In this document: piece by piece, positions 8,333 through 37,643 of the stretch
Position numbering within the stretch: position 1 is the first letter of the stretch
How the letters are laid out: every line of letters starts with the position of its first letter
DNA from: Cytobacillus massiliigabonensis
GTDB lineage: Bacteria > Bacillota > Bacilli > Bacillales > Cytobacillaceae
Reading direction: 5' to 3'
DNA: 64,000 nucleotides
Assembly (NCBI RefSeq): GCF_900199725.1
Contig: NZ_LT904903.1
Span: 849,850 to 913,849 of the forward strand
Position numbers and translations under genes: made by a program
The notes under the pieces: generated by a model
Database searches by the model: none
What the model was told of the DNA's origin: nothing
Seen by the model: only the letters and a program-made list of their open reading frames with translations

Positions 8333-8361
8333 TTGAAATGTTCTTTATAATGAACTAAAAT
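8333..8361 (+). promoter_or_regulatory. Exopolysaccharide promoter with SinR box in the spacer
   Basis: TTGAAA (8333-8338), 17 nt, TAAAAT (8356-8361) form a good sigma-A promoter. The spacer is almost wholly the inverted repeat GTTC-TTTATAAT-GAAC (8340-8355), whose left part GTTCTTT equals the known B. subtilis SinR heptamer GTTCTYT. A repressor here would block polymerase directly. About 300 nt of leader follow before epsC. Confidence 0.55.
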
Positions 8362-8384
8362 GATACATATAAATTAATTAGTAG

Positions 8385-8427
8385 AAAAAATCTATGTACA
8401 TGTATAAGGGCATAGCTTTTTTTATCT
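8385..8427 (+). terminator. Terminator-like hairpin in the eps leader
   Basis: AAAAAATCTATG / CATAGCTTTTTTT with a 14-nt loop and seven T's, right after the proposed transcription start. It may end psuKG read-through or act as an attenuator. Confidence 0.5.
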
Positions 8428-8433
8428 TCGTGT

Positions 8434-8461
8434 GTTCTTTATTAAGAATTATTTGTTCTTT
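8434..8461. promoter_or_regulatory. Two further SinR-type heptamers
   Basis: GTTCTTT at 8434-8440 and 8455-8461, same orientation, 21 bp apart, i.e. two helical turns. Together with 8340-8346 they make three identical copies in 122 bp. Confidence 0.5.
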
Positions 8462-8463
8462 CC

Positions 8464-8584
8464 AATGGCAGGTGATGTCACCTTACCTCTATCAATGGTG
8501 GCACTCGGCTATATTGTGGGTTGGAATAAACCTTAGACGCCAAGTCGTCAAGAATGTGGTGTGAGGATGGGTTAGATGCCCAAT
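8464..8584 (+). ncRNA. EAR-like structured leader RNA
   Basis: A GC-richer island in an AT-rich leader with several local hairpins: AGGTGA-TG-TCACCT (8470-8483), GGTT-GGAATA-AACC (8520-8532), and GGG-TTAGAT-GCCC near the end (8569-8581). It sits in the leader of a polysaccharide operon whose first gene is an epsC homologue. In B. subtilis the eps-associated RNA (EAR), a processive antitermination element, lies just ahead of epsC. Size (~120 nt), place and multi-hairpin form fit, but I could not align it with the Rfam model, so the assignment is tentative. Confidence 0.5.
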
Positions 8585-31730: not shown

Positions 31731-32330
31731 TTATTTTGATTCTTCCCGATAGGCGGTTAGTACATAACGATATGGAGCATCTCCAATGAAAGAGAATGGG
31801 TAACAGGTGGAAACGATCAATGTTTCTACTGGGGCAGTAGATTGAATGATTGATGTATCGTTCGCCTCAACAATTTGTGATTGACTAATTTTGTAGCTGT
31901 ATTTTCCATAAGGCATAACTATTTGTAAGGTATCGCCAATTTCTAACTCTCCTAATCGGCGAAATACGGTGTCACGGTGACCAGAAAGCACGATTTGATC
32001 CTCTTGGCCTGGGAAAACTGACCCGGCATAGTGACCAACCCCTTTTTCAAGTTCATCTTCATGTGTGCCTTCAATGATCGGAAGCTCTGCTTCTAATCCT
32101 GGAATCTCCAATATTCCGATTACTTCCCCTTTTTCATATTGAATAATAGCGTTTTTTCTTAGGATTGTTCCGCCTTCCTTATCACGAACTTTTTCTTTTG
32201 CTTCTGTTAATGCATTTTCAGTTTCTGCCTCACTATGATTTAGATCTGATAGTGACAGACTGATAAGTAGTGTGCCAGCCAGTATAAATATTATGGATGC
32301 AAATAAAAGTAAGCGTTTATATATCTTCAT
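31731..32330 (-). CDS. Class D sortase
   Basis: Membrane transpeptidase that cuts LPxTx signals and links proteins to the cell wall. It is 199 aa: one N-terminal membrane helix (8-27), a charged stalk, then the sortase beta-barrel. The catalytic triad is visible as His118 (LSGHRDT), Cys176 (IVSTCYPF) and Arg188 (APYRYV). The signature around Cys fits the class D (YhcS-like) group. It is divergent from sipW with a shared 295-bp control region, and an LPKTA-bearing protein is encoded 1.7 kb away: its probable substrate. Confidence 0.92.
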   Translation of the reverse strand: MKIYKRLLLFASIIFILAGTLLISLSLSDLNHSEAETENALTEAKEKVRDKEGGTILRKNAIIQYEKGEVIGILEIPGLEAELPIIEGTHEDELEKGVGHYAGSVFPGQEDQIVLSGHRDTVFRRLGELEIGDTLQIVMPYGKYSYKISQSQIVEANDTSIIQSTAPVETLIVSTCYPFSFIGDAPYRYVLTAYREESK

Positions 32331-32367: not shown

Positions 32368-32390
32368 TTATAAAGAACGGAACGTTCAAT
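32368..32390 (-). promoter_or_regulatory. SinR-type box and -10 before the sortase gene
   Basis: Read on the minus strand the sequence is GAACGTTCCGTTCTTTATAATGAA: a GTTCTTT heptamer (32372-32378) running straight into TATAAT (32368-32373), the same GTTCTTTATAATGAA string as in the eps promoter (8340-8354). No clear -35. Confidence 0.5.
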
Positions 32391-32446
32391 AAAAAATACA
32401 AAAAAGTAAGATAATTAAAGAAAACATGAGAAAACAAATGGAAAAC

Positions 32447-32559
32447 GTTCTTTATAACGCAAAATCGACCGAATTTAAACTTTTTCAAAATATTACATTT
32501 GGACTATACTCAATTCATAAGGTTCGTTAAAAAGAACGAATGAATTAGTAACAAAGAAC
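32447..32559 (+). promoter_or_regulatory. sipW promoter region with three SinR-type boxes
   Basis: GTTCTTT at 32447-32453; TATACT -10 at 32505-32510 (weak TTTTCA -35, 17 nt upstream); AAAGAAC (the complement of GTTCTTT) at 32531-32537, mirrored by GTTC at 32522, and again at 32553-32559. Boxes thus lie on both sides of the proposed start point, as expected of a repressed matrix-protein promoter. Confidence 0.55.
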
Positions 32560-32625
32560 GGAATCTACTCAGATATTTTGAGAGGACTAATAATCCTAGA
32601 ACCTATTTTTCTAAGGAAGGTGAAC

Positions 32626-33219
32626 ATGATGAAGTTTACTTGGAAAAAAGCAAGAAAATTCATCAGTAATATTATTACTGCTGTGTTATTTATTAATTTA
32701 ATTGTAATGGCCATTCTAGTAATCTCCTCAAAAGCATCCGGAGGAGAACCTCAGGCATTTGGCTATCAGCTTAAAACAGTATTATCTGGCTCAATGGAAC
32801 CGACTTTTTTAACCGGGTCTGTCATAGCAGTCACACCACTTGAGGGGGATGAAAAAAAGAACCTCAAGGAAGGGGATGTAATTACTTTTGTAGATAGTAA
32901 AGAAAGATTAATTACCCACAGGGTCATCGGAATCAAAACTAGCGGAGAGCATGTGATGTACGAAACGAAAGGCGATAACAACGATGCAGCTGACTTGGAT
33001 CCAGTCCTTTCTGATAACGTACAGGCTATCTACTCCGGATTTACTATTCCTTATGTAGGTTATTTTATCGACTTTGCTCAGTCAAAAGAAGGAAGTGCCA
33101 TCCTGCTGATTGGTCCTGGTTTATTGCTCTTAGCCTATGCAGCATTCAGCATTTACCAAGGTCTTAAAGAGCTTGATCCAAAAAAGAAAGGAACAGACAC
33201 CGAAGAAAAAACAGCTTAA
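32626..33219 (+). CDS. sipW: SipW-type (ER-type) signal peptidase I
   Basis: Membrane protease that removes signal peptides of TasA-family matrix proteins. It is 197 aa from ATG 32626 (AAGGAAGGTG upstream). Membrane segment at about 14-34, catalytic Ser56 in LSGSMEPTF, and His98 in LITHRVIG in place of the Lys of ordinary bacterial signal peptidases: the Ser-His, eukaryote-like class. A GDNND box and a second membrane segment (about 158-177) follow. It stands at the head of the tasA-like genes, as in the B. subtilis tapA-sipW-tasA operon. Confidence 0.93.
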   Translation: MMKFTWKKARKFISNIITAVLFINLIVMAILVISSKASGGEPQAFGYQLKTVLSGSMEPTFLTGSVIAVTPLEGDEKKNLKEGDVITFVDSKERLITHRVIGIKTSGEHVMYETKGDNNDAADLDPVLSDNVQAIYSGFTIPYVGYFIDFAQSKEGSAILLIGPGLLLLAYAAFSIYQGLKELDPKKKGTDTEEKTA

Positions 33220-33301
33220 TTTAATTGTACTCCTTGTAAAAATACAAGGGTCAATATAAAAAAATTATACATACCCAAAGGGTAAGAGGAGGAAATTGGA
33301 A

Positions 33302-33934
33302 ATGAGCTTTAAGAAAAAATTAGGTTTAGGAATCGCATCAGCAGCACTAGGTATTTCATTAGTTGGCGGAGGAACATTTGCATACTTTAGCGACACTGAA
33401 GTAACGAATAGCACATTTGCAGCTGGTACATTGGATTTAGCAGCAAACCCAACGACTATTATTGATGTGAAAAATATCAAGCCTGGAGATACTATGGTTA
33501 GAGAATTTAATCTAGAAAACAACGGAACTTTAGATATTTCTTCGATTGATCTAGGCACTAAGTATACTGTTAACGATGCTAATGGTAACAACCAAGATGA
33601 TTTTGGTAAGCATATTAAAGTTCTTTTCCTTGAAAATGCAGACAAAACAGGGGATGGCTGGGTTATTGGAGACTACAATGATGTAATTTCCGAGACAACT
33701 CTATATGACCTTCAAAATCAGACTCCTGATGCAACAGAAAACTTACAGCACTGGATTACATGGTTGTTAGGATTAAATGGAGAAGACAGCGGTTTAAAAG
33801 CTGGTACTAGCGACAAAATGTATGTAGCATTTGAATTCGTTGATAATGAACAAGATCAAAACGAATTCCAAGGGGATTCATTAGCACTTGAATGGACATT
33901 CACAGCTCATCAAGGAGAAGGCGAATCTAAATAA
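33302..33934 (+). CDS. tasA: TasA/CalY-family matrix fibre protein, copy 1
   Basis: Secreted protein expected to form biofilm fibres. It is 210 aa; start ATG 33302 is nine bases after AGAGGAGG. Signal peptide MSFKKKLGLGIASAALGISLVGGGTFAYFSD with the SipW-type cleavage region (GTFA-YFSDTE), then NSTFAAGTLDLAANP and IKPGDTMVREFNLENNGTLDI, the TasA/camelysin (peptidase M73) core; the C-terminal EFVDNEQDQNEFQGDSLALEWTF is also shared with copy 2. Length is nearer CalY of B. cereus (~197 aa) than B. subtilis TasA (261 aa). Terminator directly downstream. Confidence 0.9.
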   Translation: MSFKKKLGLGIASAALGISLVGGGTFAYFSDTEVTNSTFAAGTLDLAANPTTIIDVKNIKPGDTMVREFNLENNGTLDISSIDLGTKYTVNDANGNNQDDFGKHIKVLFLENADKTGDGWVIGDYNDVISETTLYDLQNQTPDATENLQHWITWLLGLNGEDSGLKAGTSDKMYVAFEFVDNEQDQNEFQGDSLALEWTFTAHQGEGESK

Positions 33935-33945
33935 TATTCAATAAC

Positions 33946-33973
33946 AAAAGGCAGGAATTCGTTCCTGCCTTTT
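33946..33973 (+). terminator. Terminator after tasA copy 1
   Basis: AAAAGGCAGGAA-TTCG-TTCCTGCCTTTT, a perfect 12-bp stem with a UUCG-type loop. It would lower expression of the two downstream genes relative to sipW-tasA, as fits abundant fibre subunit against anchor. Confidence 0.85.
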
Positions 33974-34001
33974 GTTAAAAATCAGATGGAGAGGCCATGC
34001 C

Positions 34002-35018
34002 ATGAATAATAGATTTATACTGGCAAAACCAAAGATTATCGCAATTATAGCCGGCATTTTCTTATTTATATTATTCGGAGAGATAAGTGCAAGGGCTGAT
34101 GGGAATGAGATTGATATAAATACGAAAATGAATCCCAGCGGCTATTTTTTTGAAGTTGGAAATTTAAAACCTGGAGATTGGATGCCACGAGATATAACGA
34201 TATTAAATGAGGGCACACAGGATTTTAGGTATACGGCAATGCTTGGTAAAAAGAAATCGGTAAAAGGTTTGTTAGAGGAACTAGATTTAATCGTTAAAAA
34301 GGGCGAAGAAGTGCTGTATGAAGGAAAAATGGACGAGTTTACAGGATTTACTCCAAGAAGTCTAGTAAAAGGTGACTCTGAGACCTTATTTTTTCAAGTT
34401 ACGATGCCATCCGAATTAGGAAATGCCTTTCAAAGCTCCGGCGCCGAAGTAGAGATATTATTTGTTGCTGAAGCCTTAGGTGATACTGGAGGCGGTGAAC
34501 CAGGTGAAGGGAATCCAGGCGAAGAACCCCCTGGTGAAGAACCCCCAGGTGATGGAGGCTCTGACGAAGGAGACCCAAATGGCGGGGATCCAGTTGAAGA
34601 GGAATCAGGTGATGGAAGCACTAATGAGGGAGATCCGGACAAAGGAGATTCAGAAAATGGAAGCTCTGACGAAGGAGGTCCCAATGGCGGAGATCCAGTT
34701 GAAGAGGAATCGGGTGATGGAAGCACTAATGAAGGAGATCCGGACAAAGGAGATTCAGAAAATGGAGGCTCTGATGAAGGGGAGCCGAATGGAGCAAACC
34801 CTGAAGAAGGGGATCAAATTGGAGTAGATACAGATGGCGAAGTGATTGAAACAAATAGTCCAGCAGAAACAATTGTTGTTTCACCAGAAGTTAGAAAAAA
34901 CCTTCTTCCCAAAACAGCAACAAACACTTATAACATTTTACTAATTGGCAGTGTACTTTTTATAGCAGGCAGTATCTTGCTTTATTTCTACAGACATAAA
35001 ATTCAGAATAATGAATAA
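34002..35018 (+). CDS. Repeat-rich wall-anchored protein in the tasA locus (LPKTA)
   Basis: 338 aa from ATG 34002 (GGAGAGG seven bases upstream). Parts: signal peptide (about 1-31, ending ISARA); a folded domain (about 35-155) with FFEVGNLKPGDWMPRDITILNEG, recalling the KPGD segment of TasA/CalY; a disordered Gly/Glu/Asp/Pro/Ser region (about 156-285) built on a 35-residue repeat; the sorting signal LPKTA, a membrane helix and RHKIQNNE tail. It should be exported, cut by the sortase at 31.7 kb and joined to peptidoglycan. By place it could replace TapA as the fibre anchor; this is inference. No sequence similarity to TapA was seen. Confidence 0.85.
   Translation: MNNRFILAKPKIIAIIAGIFLFILFGEISARADGNEIDINTKMNPSGYFFEVGNLKPGDWMPRDITILNEGTQDFRYTAMLGKKKSVKGLLEELDLIVKKGEEVLYEGKMDEFTGFTPRSLVKGDSETLFFQVTMPSELGNAFQSSGAEVEILFVAEALGDTGGGEPGEGNPGEEPPGEEPPGDGGSDEGDPNGGDPVEEESGDGSTNEGDPDKGDSENGSSDEGGPNGGDPVEEESGDGSTNEGDPDKGDSENGGSDEGEPNGANPEEGDQIGVDTDGEVIETNSPAETIVVSPEVRKNLLPKTATNTYNILLIGSVLFIAGSILLYFYRHKIQNNE
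34554..34787 (+). repeat. 105-bp in-frame tandem repeat
   Basis: Two full copies (34554-34658, 34659-34763) with about 93% identity by eye and a short third start at 34764. Each encodes 35 residues beginning GGSDEG or GSSDEG and holding PVEEESGDGSTNEGDPDKGD. The period keeps frame, so copy number can change without breaking the protein. Confidence 0.88.
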
Positions 35019-35063
35019 TTTAGGACAGAAATAAATATATAGATTATGAGGAGGATTCTAGTA

Positions 35064-35624
35064 ATGAGTATTAAGAAGAAAATTGGTTTAGGAGTTGCAA
35101 CTGCAGCACTAGGCGTTTCATTAGTTGGCGGAGGGACATTTGCATACTTTAACGATGTTGAAACAACGAATAGTACCTTTGCTGCTGGAACATTAGATTT
35201 AGGAATCGATAAAGAAACCATTATAAATATTGATAATATTAAGCCAGGTGACCGTTTCTTTCGATACTTCCAGCTATCAAATGATGGGACACTTGATATG
35301 AAAGAGATCCTGCTAAACTCCACTTATGAAGTAGTTGATGCGAATGGCGACAATTCTGGAGAGGATTTTGGGGAACATATTATGGTGGAGTACCTTTACA
35401 ATGCTTCTGGTAAAGATACAGTGATTTTCCAGAATACTCTAGCAGAAATAAAGGATAATCCAATTAAAATACTAGAGAACTTTCCAGCAGGAGCAAAAAA
35501 TGTGAAATTTACTGTGCAATTTGAGTTTGTCGATAATGAGGAAGATCAAAACAAATTCCAAAATGATGCTTTAAAGCTTAATTGGTCTTTTGAGGCTAAA
35601 CAACAGGATGGTTCAAATAAGTAA
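35064..35624 (+). CDS. TasA/CalY-family matrix fibre protein, copy 2
   Basis: 186 aa from ATG 35064, preceded by GAGGAGG. The signal peptide and first 60 residues closely repeat copy 1 (MSIKKKIGLGVATAALGVSLVGGGTFAYFND, NSTFAAGTLDLG, IKPGDRFFRYFQLSNDGTLDM); the centre diverges; the C-terminus FEFVDNEEDQNKFQNDALKLNWSFEA is again alike. The two arose by duplication. It may be a minor or specialised fibre subunit; processed by the upstream SipW. Confidence 0.88.
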   Translation: MSIKKKIGLGVATAALGVSLVGGGTFAYFNDVETTNSTFAAGTLDLGIDKETIINIDNIKPGDRFFRYFQLSNDGTLDMKEILLNSTYEVVDANGDNSGEDFGEHIMVEYLYNASGKDTVIFQNTLAEIKDNPIKILENFPAGAKNVKFTVQFEFVDNEEDQNKFQNDALKLNWSFEAKQQDGSNK

Positions 35625-36060: not shown

Positions 36061-36183
36061 GTGGTCGGGACAAATATAGAGGTCACAGAAATAGATAAAG
36101 AATGGCTGCAGTTAATAATCGAAGCAAAGAATTTAGGAATAGAGAAAAAAGAGATCTTGGACTATTTAAATAATCATGTATAA
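36061..36183 (+). CDS. sinI: SinI-like anti-repressor, copy 1
   Basis: 40 residues from GTG 36061, with GGGGGGAA five bases upstream. The core EIDKEWLQLIIEAKNLGIEKKEILDYL matches the SinI dimerisation helices (B. subtilis: ELDQEWVELMVEAKEANISPEEIRKYL). SinI binds SinR one-to-one and pulls it off DNA, switching on matrix genes. Shorter than B. subtilis SinI (57 aa) because it lacks the unstructured C-terminal tail. No riboswitch precedes this copy. The DNA-binding part is absent, so it cannot act as a repressor itself. Confidence 0.85.
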   Translation: MVGTNIEVTEIDKEWLQLIIEAKNLGIEKKEILDYLNNHV

Positions 36184-36250: not shown

Positions 36251-36304
36251 AGATAAAAATTGCAGGCACTTCCCTATAAAGCTGCCAATTAAAGGGTGGT
36301 CTAT

Positions 36305-36595
36305 TTGAAAATATTATTTTCTTACCTTGCCATATTAAATTTACTTGATGGAGCTGCTACGTATTGGGGTCTTCATTTCTCGATGATTGAAGAAAGCAAT
36401 CCGCTGATGAATCGTCTATATGAAATAAGTCCTTTGCTTTTTTTAGGATATAAGCTGTTTCTCTCAGCTGTTCTTTACGGACTGATCTTAACGAAGAAGC
36501 TTCCAGCGACTCGTATTATAAAAGGTTTGTCGATTGCAGCTTCTATAATCTACACTATCGTTATTGGATTACATGGTGTATGGATATTTAGATAA
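36305..36595 (+). CDS. DUF5658-like membrane protein
   Basis: 96 aa from TTG 36305 (AAAGGGTGG five bases upstream; GTG 36296 is in frame but overlaps that site). Three membrane segments; the first ends in NLLDGAATYWGL and is followed by EESNPLMNRLYEISPL, the signature of the small DUF5658 family. Function unknown. It lies between the two sinI units; no link to the biofilm switch can be shown. Confidence 0.7.
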   Translation: MKILFSYLAILNLLDGAATYWGLHFSMIEESNPLMNRLYEISPLLFLGYKLFLSAVLYGLILTKKLPATRIIKGLSIAASIIYTIVIGLHGVWIFR

Positions 36596-36690
36596 TACTT
36601 CCCCTCTTTTTTAATCGAGTTTTGAGATACTGTACTTACTATTTTGTCAATAATGGAAATGGGATATTTTTCCTAGTGTATAATAATAAA

Positions 36691-36718
36691 TTGACAAACT
36701 TCCTCAAAATGCTATATA
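36691..36718 (+). promoter_or_regulatory. Sigma-A promoter upstream of riboswitch-sinI
   Basis: Perfect TTGACA (36691-36696) with TATATA at 16 nt (36713-36718) or TATAAA at 18 nt. The transcript would have a ~200-nt leader before the riboswitch. Confidence 0.55.
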
Positions 36719-36796
36719 AAATTTAACAAAAAATTAGGTATTAAGTTTGTATATTTGTAAATTCGAAATAAGCTGCTTAATGTAATTGAGGAATAA

Positions 36797-36803
36797 TGTC
36801 GAA
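36797..36803 (+). promoter_or_regulatory. Spo0A box (0A-box)
   Basis: TGTCGAA, the exact known Spo0A recognition heptamer, lies ~240 bp before sinI copy 2. In B. subtilis sinI is switched on by phosphorylated Spo0A. Confidence 0.45.
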
Positions 36804-36925
36804 AGATAGTCTTAAAAAATGTGTTAAAAATTTTCTGAATAGACAAAAATCAACAGTATAAGTGATATACATCATATAAAATACATAATATAGAATAAAT
36901 AATCTTTATAAAAAATATAGAAAAA

Positions 36926-37005
36926 GGCAAACCTGCTGAAAGGCAGGGACGCAAAGTCACAGGTCTAAGGTATGTAGGTTAAAATACTAAGATGGCTGGG
37001 TTGCC
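36926..37005 (+). promoter_or_regulatory. Cyclic di-GMP-I (GEMM-I) riboswitch
   Basis: All core features of the class are visible in order: GGCAAACC opening P1, a P2 hairpin with a GAAA loop (CTGCTGAAAGGCAG), the conserved GGGACGCAAAG, P3 starting CACAGGTCTAAGG, and the closing GATGGCTGGGTTGCC whose GGTTGCC pairs with GGCAACC-like bases of the 5' end. GEMM-I RNAs bind cyclic di-GMP. The element ends 32 nt before the start of a sinI-like gene on the same strand, so it should control that gene. Confidence 0.93.
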
Positions 37006-37007
37006 TT

Positions 37008-37024
37008 AAATACGATTCGTATTT
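37008..37024 (+). promoter_or_regulatory. Short hairpin between riboswitch and sinI copy 2
   Basis: AAATACG-ATT-CGTATTT, a 7-bp perfect stem ending two bases before the GGGGGG ribosome site. It may be part of the expression platform; its T run (TTTT) is short for a terminator. Confidence 0.4.
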
Positions 37025-37037
37025 TGGGGGGAACTAT

Positions 37038-37184
37038 GTGGTTGAGATGAAATTGACTATGGGGGAAATGGATTTAGAATGGCTAGAGCTGATTATTGAG
37101 GCAAAAAAAATGGGAATCCAAAAAGAAGAGATTAGGGATTTCTTTATGAACTGTGGGGTAAAAGAAATAATTCTAAAGGGCTGA
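37038..37184 (+). CDS. sinI: SinI-like anti-repressor, copy 2 (riboswitch-controlled)
   Basis: 48 residues from GTG 37038, six bases after GGGGGG. The core EMDLEWLELIIEAKKMGIQKEEIRDFF matches SinI dimerisation helices even more closely than copy 1. A short tail (MNCGVKEIILKG) follows. It should bind SinR (encoded convergently 135 bp away) or the SinR-like protein of the eps operon and lift repression of matrix genes. Its leader carries the GEMM-I riboswitch, so its level should follow cyclic di-GMP. Direction of the response (on or off) cannot be told without the expression platform. Confidence 0.87.
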   Translation: MVEMKLTMGEMDLEWLELIIEAKKMGIQKEEIRDFFMNCGVKEIILKG

Positions 37185-37204
37185 AAATGATGGGGACAAG
37201 TGTT

Positions 37205-37252
37205 AAGTATTTCTTGTGAGAGTTCTCTCATATAAGAAATACTTTTTATTTT
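37205..37252 (+). terminator. Terminator after sinI copy 2
   Basis: AAGTATTTCTT / AAGAAATACTT, perfect 11-bp stem, followed by TTTATTTT. The loop contains GAGAGTTCTCTC. Confidence 0.85.
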
Positions 37253-37262
37253 AAAATAAAGA

Positions 37263-37307
37263 GGCAAGGAGGCTTATAAATAATTTTTGAGCTTCCTGCC
37301 TTTTTTT
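37263..37307. terminator. Second terminator between sinI copy 2 and sinR
   Basis: GGCAAGGAGGCT / AGCTTCCTGCC with bulges, then seven T's on the plus strand; ends 13 bp from the sinR stop. Confidence 0.65.
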
Positions 37308-37319
37308 ATGATAAGGAAC

Positions 37320-37643
37320 TTATTTATTTTGATCAATTCTCCATTTATTAAATGCTAAAAAATCTCGAAATTGGTCTTTAGAAACGCCAGAATTCATGGC
37401 TTCCTGTACAATTTTCATCCATTCTGAATCCAATTCTTCTTTATTAGGCTGTTCGTGAATTAAATGATCGACGGGTACATTTAATACTGCAGCAATTTTT
37501 TCAAGAAATTGAATCGAAGGGTTTGTTTGCAAGTTTCTCTCGAGCGAACTTAAATATGACTTAGCCACACCAGCTTGTTCGGCAAGCTCGGATAACGACA
37601 TTTTCTTTTCCTTTCGTAGTAGTTTAACTCGTTCACCGATCAT
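37320..37643 (-). CDS. sinR: Biofilm master repressor SinR
   Basis: 107 aa, colinear with B. subtilis SinR (111 aa). The HTH domain (1-65) has MSLSELAEQAGVAKSYLSSLERNLQTNPS, with the recognition helix unchanged; the C-terminal domain (about 72-107) has LDSEWMKIVQEAMNSGVSKDQFRDFLAFNKW, the SinI-binding helical hook. SinR represses exopolysaccharide and TasA genes by binding GTTCTYT sites. Here it is read opposite to and convergent with sinI copy 2, whereas B. subtilis has sinI-sinR as a tandem operon. AAGGTG precedes ATG 37643. Confidence 0.96.
   Translation of the reverse strand: MIGERVKLLRKEKKMSLSELAEQAGVAKSYLSSLERNLQTNPSIQFLEKIAAVLNVPVDHLIHEQPNKEELDSEWMKIVQEAMNSGVSKDQFRDFLAFNKWRIDQNK

Follow-up and report, generated by a model that had tools for sequence, protein, structure and literature searches.

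The sinI locus of Cytobacillus massiliigabonensis lies within the 64-kb window, the whole stretch of 64,000 nucleotides that was analyzed, and it combines a short SinI-domain gene with a cyclic di-GMP (c-di-GMP) class I riboswitch aptamer directly in front of it and a convergent sinR gene behind it. The features of this locus are as follows.

36061 to 36183, + strand: second sinI, 40 aa (PF08671, E 6.9e-10), with no Rfam match in front
36797 to 36803, + strand: perfect Spo0A box (0A box, TGTCGAA), ~130 nt upstream of the aptamer
36916 to 37008, + strand: c-di-GMP-I (GEMM-I) riboswitch aptamer, Rfam span (RF01051, 81.6 bits, E 1.6e-14)
36926 to 37005, + strand: aptamer core, from the 5' GG to the 3' CC of P1, with the ligand-contact equivalents G36927, A36954, and C37004
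37038 to 37184, + strand: sinI, 48 aa, GTG start (PF08671, E 1.1e-10; 1b0n_B, E 1.3e-4)
37320 to 37643, - strand: sinR, 107 aa, convergent with sinI (1b0n_A, SinR, E 2e-39, residues 1-105; HTH_3 and SinI domain)

The cmscan search of the whole window against Rfam returned two matches over the gathering score, the epsC (EAR) RNA at 8470-8582 and the c-di-GMP-I element, which spans the entire model (1-87 of 87) and far exceeds its gathering score of 35. The first-pass annotation had described a complete GEMM-I aptamer at 36926-37005, 32 nt before a GTG-started SinI homologue, and had named an Infernal search with RF01051 as a check. The significant, full-length score bears this out with the same core limits (first G of GGCAAA, last C of TTGCC), and the spacer (37006-37037) and the PF08671 match of the gene product agree as well. 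In the RF01051 alignment, P2 is capped by the GAAA tetraloop expected of the c-di-GMP-I class. The ligand contacts G20, A47, and C92 (Vc2 numbering) correspond to G36927, A36954, and C37004, a mapping that leans partly on what we take to be the Vc2 sequence. Aptamers of the GEMM-Ib type look alike and the leader could accordingly be read as a sensor of 3',3'-cGAMP; a G20A change is, we presume, what sets that type apart. The G20 equivalent is a G in all 109 leaders compared (80 from a named collection, 28 from the genus, and the window itself; 108 were counted and leader L150 was re-read), and the genome holds 16 GGDEF matches, 15 of them over the cut-off, which makes cGAMP sensing highly improbable. 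The A47 equivalent is likewise kept in 109 leaders and that of C92 in 108. These three nucleotides of Vc2 are named as ligand contacts in PMC11218506 and PMC4744006.

The sinI product reaches 41.5 bits against the two-helix SinI domain of Pfam (cut-off 31.4) and aligns with residues 8-37 of B. subtilis SinI. Because it misses the cut-off of the NCBIfam equivalog NF046031 for B. subtilis-type SinI (31.6 vs 80 bits), it is a SinI-domain homologue and, by that test, not a B. subtilis-type SinI. The sinR product has the helix-turn-helix and C-terminal SinI-like domain of SinR, matches the B. subtilis protein over nearly its whole length, and stays under the SlrR equivalog cut-off (73.9 vs 250). 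The two products would be expected to bind each other in C. massiliigabonensis. Besides SinR, the genome encodes four short SinI-domain frames, one of which lies 1 kb upstream of the riboswitch-borne sinI. This second sinI (36061-36183) has a G-rich Shine-Dalgarno sequence and no riboswitch, and a DUF5658 membrane protein is encoded between both sinI genes at 36296-36595; of the 36 loci retrieved from the genus, 24 have a match to it.

The region between the aptamer and the start codon contains the features of a candidate expression platform.

37000 to 37034, + strand: competing (OFF) hairpin (MFE -11.2 kcal/mol, z -2.51; 109 leaders, shuffle control, and pair counts)
37004 to 37006, + strand: CCU, the 3' strand of aptamer P1 and, in the other fold, an anti-Shine-Dalgarno (folding and pair counts)
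37026 to 37033, + strand: Shine-Dalgarno GGGGGGAA, read from the sequence, 4 nt before the GTG

When 37000-37040 is folded alone, CCUU at 37004-37007 is predicted to pair with GGGG at 37027-37030, and only 3 of 200 shuffles reach an energy as low. The hairpin is completed by pairs between 37008-37014 and 37018-37024 and between 37000-37002 and 37032-37034. The aptamer is closed by the CC of CCU, which includes the C that contacts the ligand. Structure prediction finds the Shine-Dalgarno sequestered in one of two exclusive folds, as in translational riboswitches. Most of the 109 leaders share the order CCU-GG-AAUAC(G)-loop-(C)GUAUUUU-RGGGG or a near variant downstream of the aptamer; the consensus stem is absent from Evansella, Domibacillus, and Thalassobacillus leaders.

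Each of the 109 leaders was folded twice, once without constraints (the free fold) and once with the aptamer pairs enforced. One of the 109, L150, comes from the edge of a record; in the folding and shuffle sets it was anchored wrongly and filled up with ten A. The mean unpaired probability of the Shine-Dalgarno is 0.40 in the free fold vs 0.83 with the aptamer enforced. In the free fold, more than one CCU-Shine-Dalgarno pair is expected in 94 leaders and more than two in 78. The 15 leaders with one pair or less include several of the C. oceanisediminis/firmus type, in which an A-C mismatch lies beside the G-C pair, and Evansella leaders that lack the consensus stem. Shuffling the spacer of the 102 unique leaders lowers the mean number of these pairs from 2.35 to 0.79; 93 leaders lie above their own shuffle mean, and only 53 equal or surpass every one of their 20 shuffles. 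Across 84 distinct platforms, 94.0% of the cells of the helix pair in register, compared with 26.7-56.2% when the strands are slid by 1-3 columns, and the covariation score is 0.175 vs 0.037-0.118. Of 500 column shuffles, 0-10 do as well on these measures as the real platforms, a result that relatedness may explain in part. A G-U pair has changed to G-C at one position in ten platforms, and in a Salibacterium leader (L181) the hairpin persists although its sequence differs. Together, these predictions point to a conserved alternative pairing between CCU and the Shine-Dalgarno. Changes on both sides of a pair were also considered as proof of covariation and rejected; they occur at 5 of 10 pairs and at 3-6 in the slid controls, so that measure gives no support.

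The direction of control is suggested by the same folds. Enforcing the aptamer opens the Shine-Dalgarno by more than 0.1 in 92 of the 109 leaders and closes it by as much in one, which argues that c-di-GMP would raise SinI production. OFF switches are common among riboswitches, and the short hairpin that stays beside the Shine-Dalgarno in the bound form could hinder ribosomes, in which case c-di-GMP would lower SinI production; against the predicted opening of the site, this reading is very unlikely. Unpublished arrays cited in PMC7793685, in which B. thuringiensis sinI is up at high c-di-GMP, also speak indirectly and by analogy against an OFF switch. For the favored ON switch, the predicted energies prefer the OFF form by ~11 kcal/mol on average over the 109 leaders, and therefore the ligand must act during RNA synthesis or bind very tightly.

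Control could also take place at transcription, through a terminator and antiterminator, or at RNA stability instead of translation. Riboswitches of this class in the B. cereus group offer precedents, as described in PMC11218506: Bc1 carries a pair of terminators, and a transcriptional fusion of Bc2 is responsive. By eye, a hairpin followed by a T-run is also present in 5 of 8 other RF01051 leaders of the C. massiliigabonensis genome (L003 left out). In contrast, no terminator-like site was found on the + strand of 36590-37330, five or more consecutive T within 45 nt after P1 occur in only 4 of the 109 leaders, and the conserved stem extends into the G-run of the Shine-Dalgarno. A transcriptional or stability mechanism is hence unlikely, and translational control is preferred. 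No clear promoter was found in 36590-37330 (6 promoter-like sites vs 3.9 in shuffles).

The genome has ten RF01051 elements in total. Two of them, at G000:C6:483935-484019 and G000:C8:2217510-2217594, lie ~0.2 and 0.8 kb upstream of same-strand GGDEF domains, which suggests feedback on c-di-GMP turnover; other elements precede genes for chemoreceptor and secreted proteins, as judged by eye. In the genus, all 36 Cytobacillus genomes contain RF01051 and a SinI-domain match (SinR included). The survey of riboswitch-sinI adjacency proposed with the first-pass annotation was run, and it places the element directly before sinI in 29 of these genomes, that of C. massiliigabonensis included. The arrangement is absent from the other seven (G002, G007, G010, G015, G016, G023, and G031); a search at E up to 10 found no RF01051 in their loci or in one further locus of G034, and a sinI beside sinR could not be placed in G002 and G010. 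In G007, remnants of a decayed aptamer are visible by eye before a kept sinI (L103), an apparent recent loss. Eight of the 29 riboswitches before sinI (L071, L072, L074, L075, L076, L077, L093, and L101) have a long P3 insert, with which the Rfam scores drop to 43-71 bits while the aptamer looks complete by eye. A reading of the seven aptamers at 43-50 bits as degenerate or variant sensors was rejected on this ground; the aptamer of G017 (71 bits) also has the insert.

Wider surveys used a strict sequence pattern that joins the aptamer to SinI codons. In its first form it catches 20 of the 29 Cytobacillus genomes with the arrangement and so under-counts; for the surveys, its second gap was moved by two. 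In an even sample of 397 genomes of the order, the pattern is found in 56, from 24 of 135 genera and 18 of 47 families, and the reversed pattern in none; a SinI-domain match is present in 299 of the 397, all 56 matching genomes among them. A draw across the whole class has 8 matching genomes in 398, one of them outside the order. At least 119 stretches of the named collection match the pattern, and 80 are listed. The genera among the matches listed include Neobacillus, Mesobacillus, Cytobacillus, Lederbergia, Evansella, Sutcliffiella, Rossellomorea, Oceanobacillus, Salinibacillus, Thalassobacillus, Jeotgalibacillus, Domibacillus, Salibacterium, Alkalihalobacterium, and Gorillibacterium. On two contigs titled Chryseobacterium (L118) and Paenibacillus (L149), the riboswitch-sinI units resemble those of Mesobacillus and Neobacillus, and these genomes are possibly mislabelled. 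In the 80 named loci listed, a SinR match is present in 73, with more than 75 aligned residues in 68, and sinR lies less than 1 kb from the riboswitch in 66; in 48 of the loci it is convergent and located downstream at no more than that distance. Since the aptamer before sinI recurs in so many relatives of Bacillus, c-di-GMP probably controls the matrix switch directly in these bacteria.

Upstream of the aptamer, the perfect 0A box (consensus from PMC10134886) adds a second candidate input. The window as a whole shows no excess of 0A boxes (3 vs 5.6 expected), and the support therefore comes from where they lie. Once 10 short or duplicate entries are removed, the 109 leaders give 99 distinct upstream regions of at least 240 nt. 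A perfect box is present within 260 nt in 38 of these, where a first-order Markov model expects 2.0 with a maximum of 6 in 200 draws; 61 regions have none. Twenty-two boxes sit 121-130 nt upstream, and as they belong mostly to related Cytobacillus they are not independent. B. subtilis sinI is described in PMC3163267 as transcribed under Spo0A control, and Spo0A would act on sinI in C. massiliigabonensis as well. Given the perfect box upstream, c-di-GMP probably acts jointly with Spo0A and does not look like its replacement.

The presumed targets of SinR are located in the same window.

8340 to 8461, + strand: three SinR boxes (GTTCTTT) before the exopolysaccharide (eps) operon (motif search)
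8470 to 8582, + strand: epsC (EAR) RNA of the exopolysaccharide operon (RF01735, 105.6 bits)
32372 to 32559, no strand assigned: four SinR boxes before sipW-tasA (motif search)
32578 to 33219, + strand: sipW signal peptidase (NF046067 SipW, 278 bits, cut-off 190)
33296 to 33934, + strand: TasA/camelysin-family protein, presumed matrix fibre (PF12389, E 5.7e-85)
35046 to 35624, + strand: second TasA/camelysin-family protein (PF12389, E 2.6e-69)

The product of 33296-33934 is taken here to be TasA in both name and role. Encoded on either side of sipW-tasA are a class D sortase and an LPXTG-anchored protein whose similarity to camelysin is sub-threshold (31731-32330 and 33972-35018), a hint of wall-anchored matrix fibres. 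SinR boxes in the form GTTCTYT (consensus from PMC3163267) number 32 in the window against 22.1 expected, and triplets within 190 bp occur in the 64 kb only before eps and before sipW-tasA. The window consequently holds the sensor, the anti-repressor, the repressor, and both presumed repressor targets. The riboswitch might work and its SinI still act mainly on another partner, with the matrix not the main output, and the four additional short SinI-domain frames of the genome favor such a reading. It is nevertheless quite unlikely in view of the convergent sinR neighbor, here and in the 48 named loci, and of the restriction of SinR-box clusters in the window to the two matrix operons.

The proposed circuit, in which the sinI mRNA starts with a c-di-GMP-I riboswitch that acts as a translational ON switch and feeds the SinI/SinR matrix switch, is given a probability of about three in four. 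Without ligand, the short P1 of the aptamer would give way, and its 3' strand CCU would join the next stem (AAAUACG...CGUAUUU) and pair with the G-rich Shine-Dalgarno, leaving sinI untranslated. With c-di-GMP bound, C37004 and its neighbors would be held in the binding site and in P1, so that only the small hairpin stays, the Shine-Dalgarno is free, and SinI is made. SinI would then bind the neighboring SinR and release the eps and sipW-tasA promoters. Because Spo0A probably sets sinI transcription through the upstream 0A box, sinI would read Spo0A and c-di-GMP together. The aptamer, the gene, their adjacency and conservation, and the box positions are observed, and the conserved alternative pairing is predicted; binding of c-di-GMP by the sinI leader, the direction of control, the resulting effect on sinI expression, the action of Spo0A, and SinI-SinR binding in C. 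massiliigabonensis are what we infer. The direct RNA link between c-di-GMP and the SinI/SinR switch suggested in the first-pass annotation is well supported at the level of sequence, by the aptamer, the conserved platform predicted to sequester the Shine-Dalgarno, the adjacency, and the SinR boxes before eps and sipW-tasA.

The riboswitch class itself is known, and the interest lies in its link to a master switch of the matrix and in the breadth of that link. If the reading is right, sinI would carry a conserved RNA sensor in roughly two dozen genera (by pattern), and many Gram-positive soil bacteria would wire c-di-GMP directly to the matrix switch. Gram-negative bacteria put c-di-GMP on matrix production by other means, and here one small leader RNA would do; the question can be tested with simple reporters. 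A broader and more tentative proposal, held at somewhat less than even odds, is that c-di-GMP is an ancestral direct input of SinI/SinR across much of Bacillales, where a translational ON riboswitch on a Spo0A-driven sinI would form a two-key gate for starvation and c-di-GMP, and that B. subtilis lost this input or never had it.

In B. subtilis, sinI and sinR are presumably co-directional and sinI has no such RNA sensor, whereas the two genes converge here and the sensor is an addition to the Spo0A control of B. subtilis. As proposed here, SinI disarms SinR in B. subtilis (PMC3163267), and a 0A box lies upstream here too. The first-pass annotation had not known the link to be described, yet the adjacency is in print: Irla et al. 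2015 (PMC4342826) printed a putative '(c-di-GMP)-sinI' riboswitch (BMMGA3_08510) for Bacillus methanolicus MGA3, the same class predicted before sinI, as compared by description. That entry, as far as the text available goes, consists of one table row and one sentence, without platform, mechanism, other species, or circuit. No report of the spread, the mechanism, or the circuit was found in the open-access literature searched, and PMC4342826 is the only source found there for the adjacency. In the B. cereus group, Bc1 before mcpE, as described in PMC11218506, is likewise a c-di-GMP-I aptamer affecting the ribosome site; unlike the sinI leader, it has a long platform with two terminators, a chemoreceptor target, and little response in cells. 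Bc2 before cap/cbpA (PMC4933901, PMC7423583, PMC11218506) shares the c-di-GMP-I aptamer, the ON direction, and an output in sessile life, but its described target is a collagen adhesin, whereas the sinI leader would control a matrix anti-repressor through a predicted translational platform.
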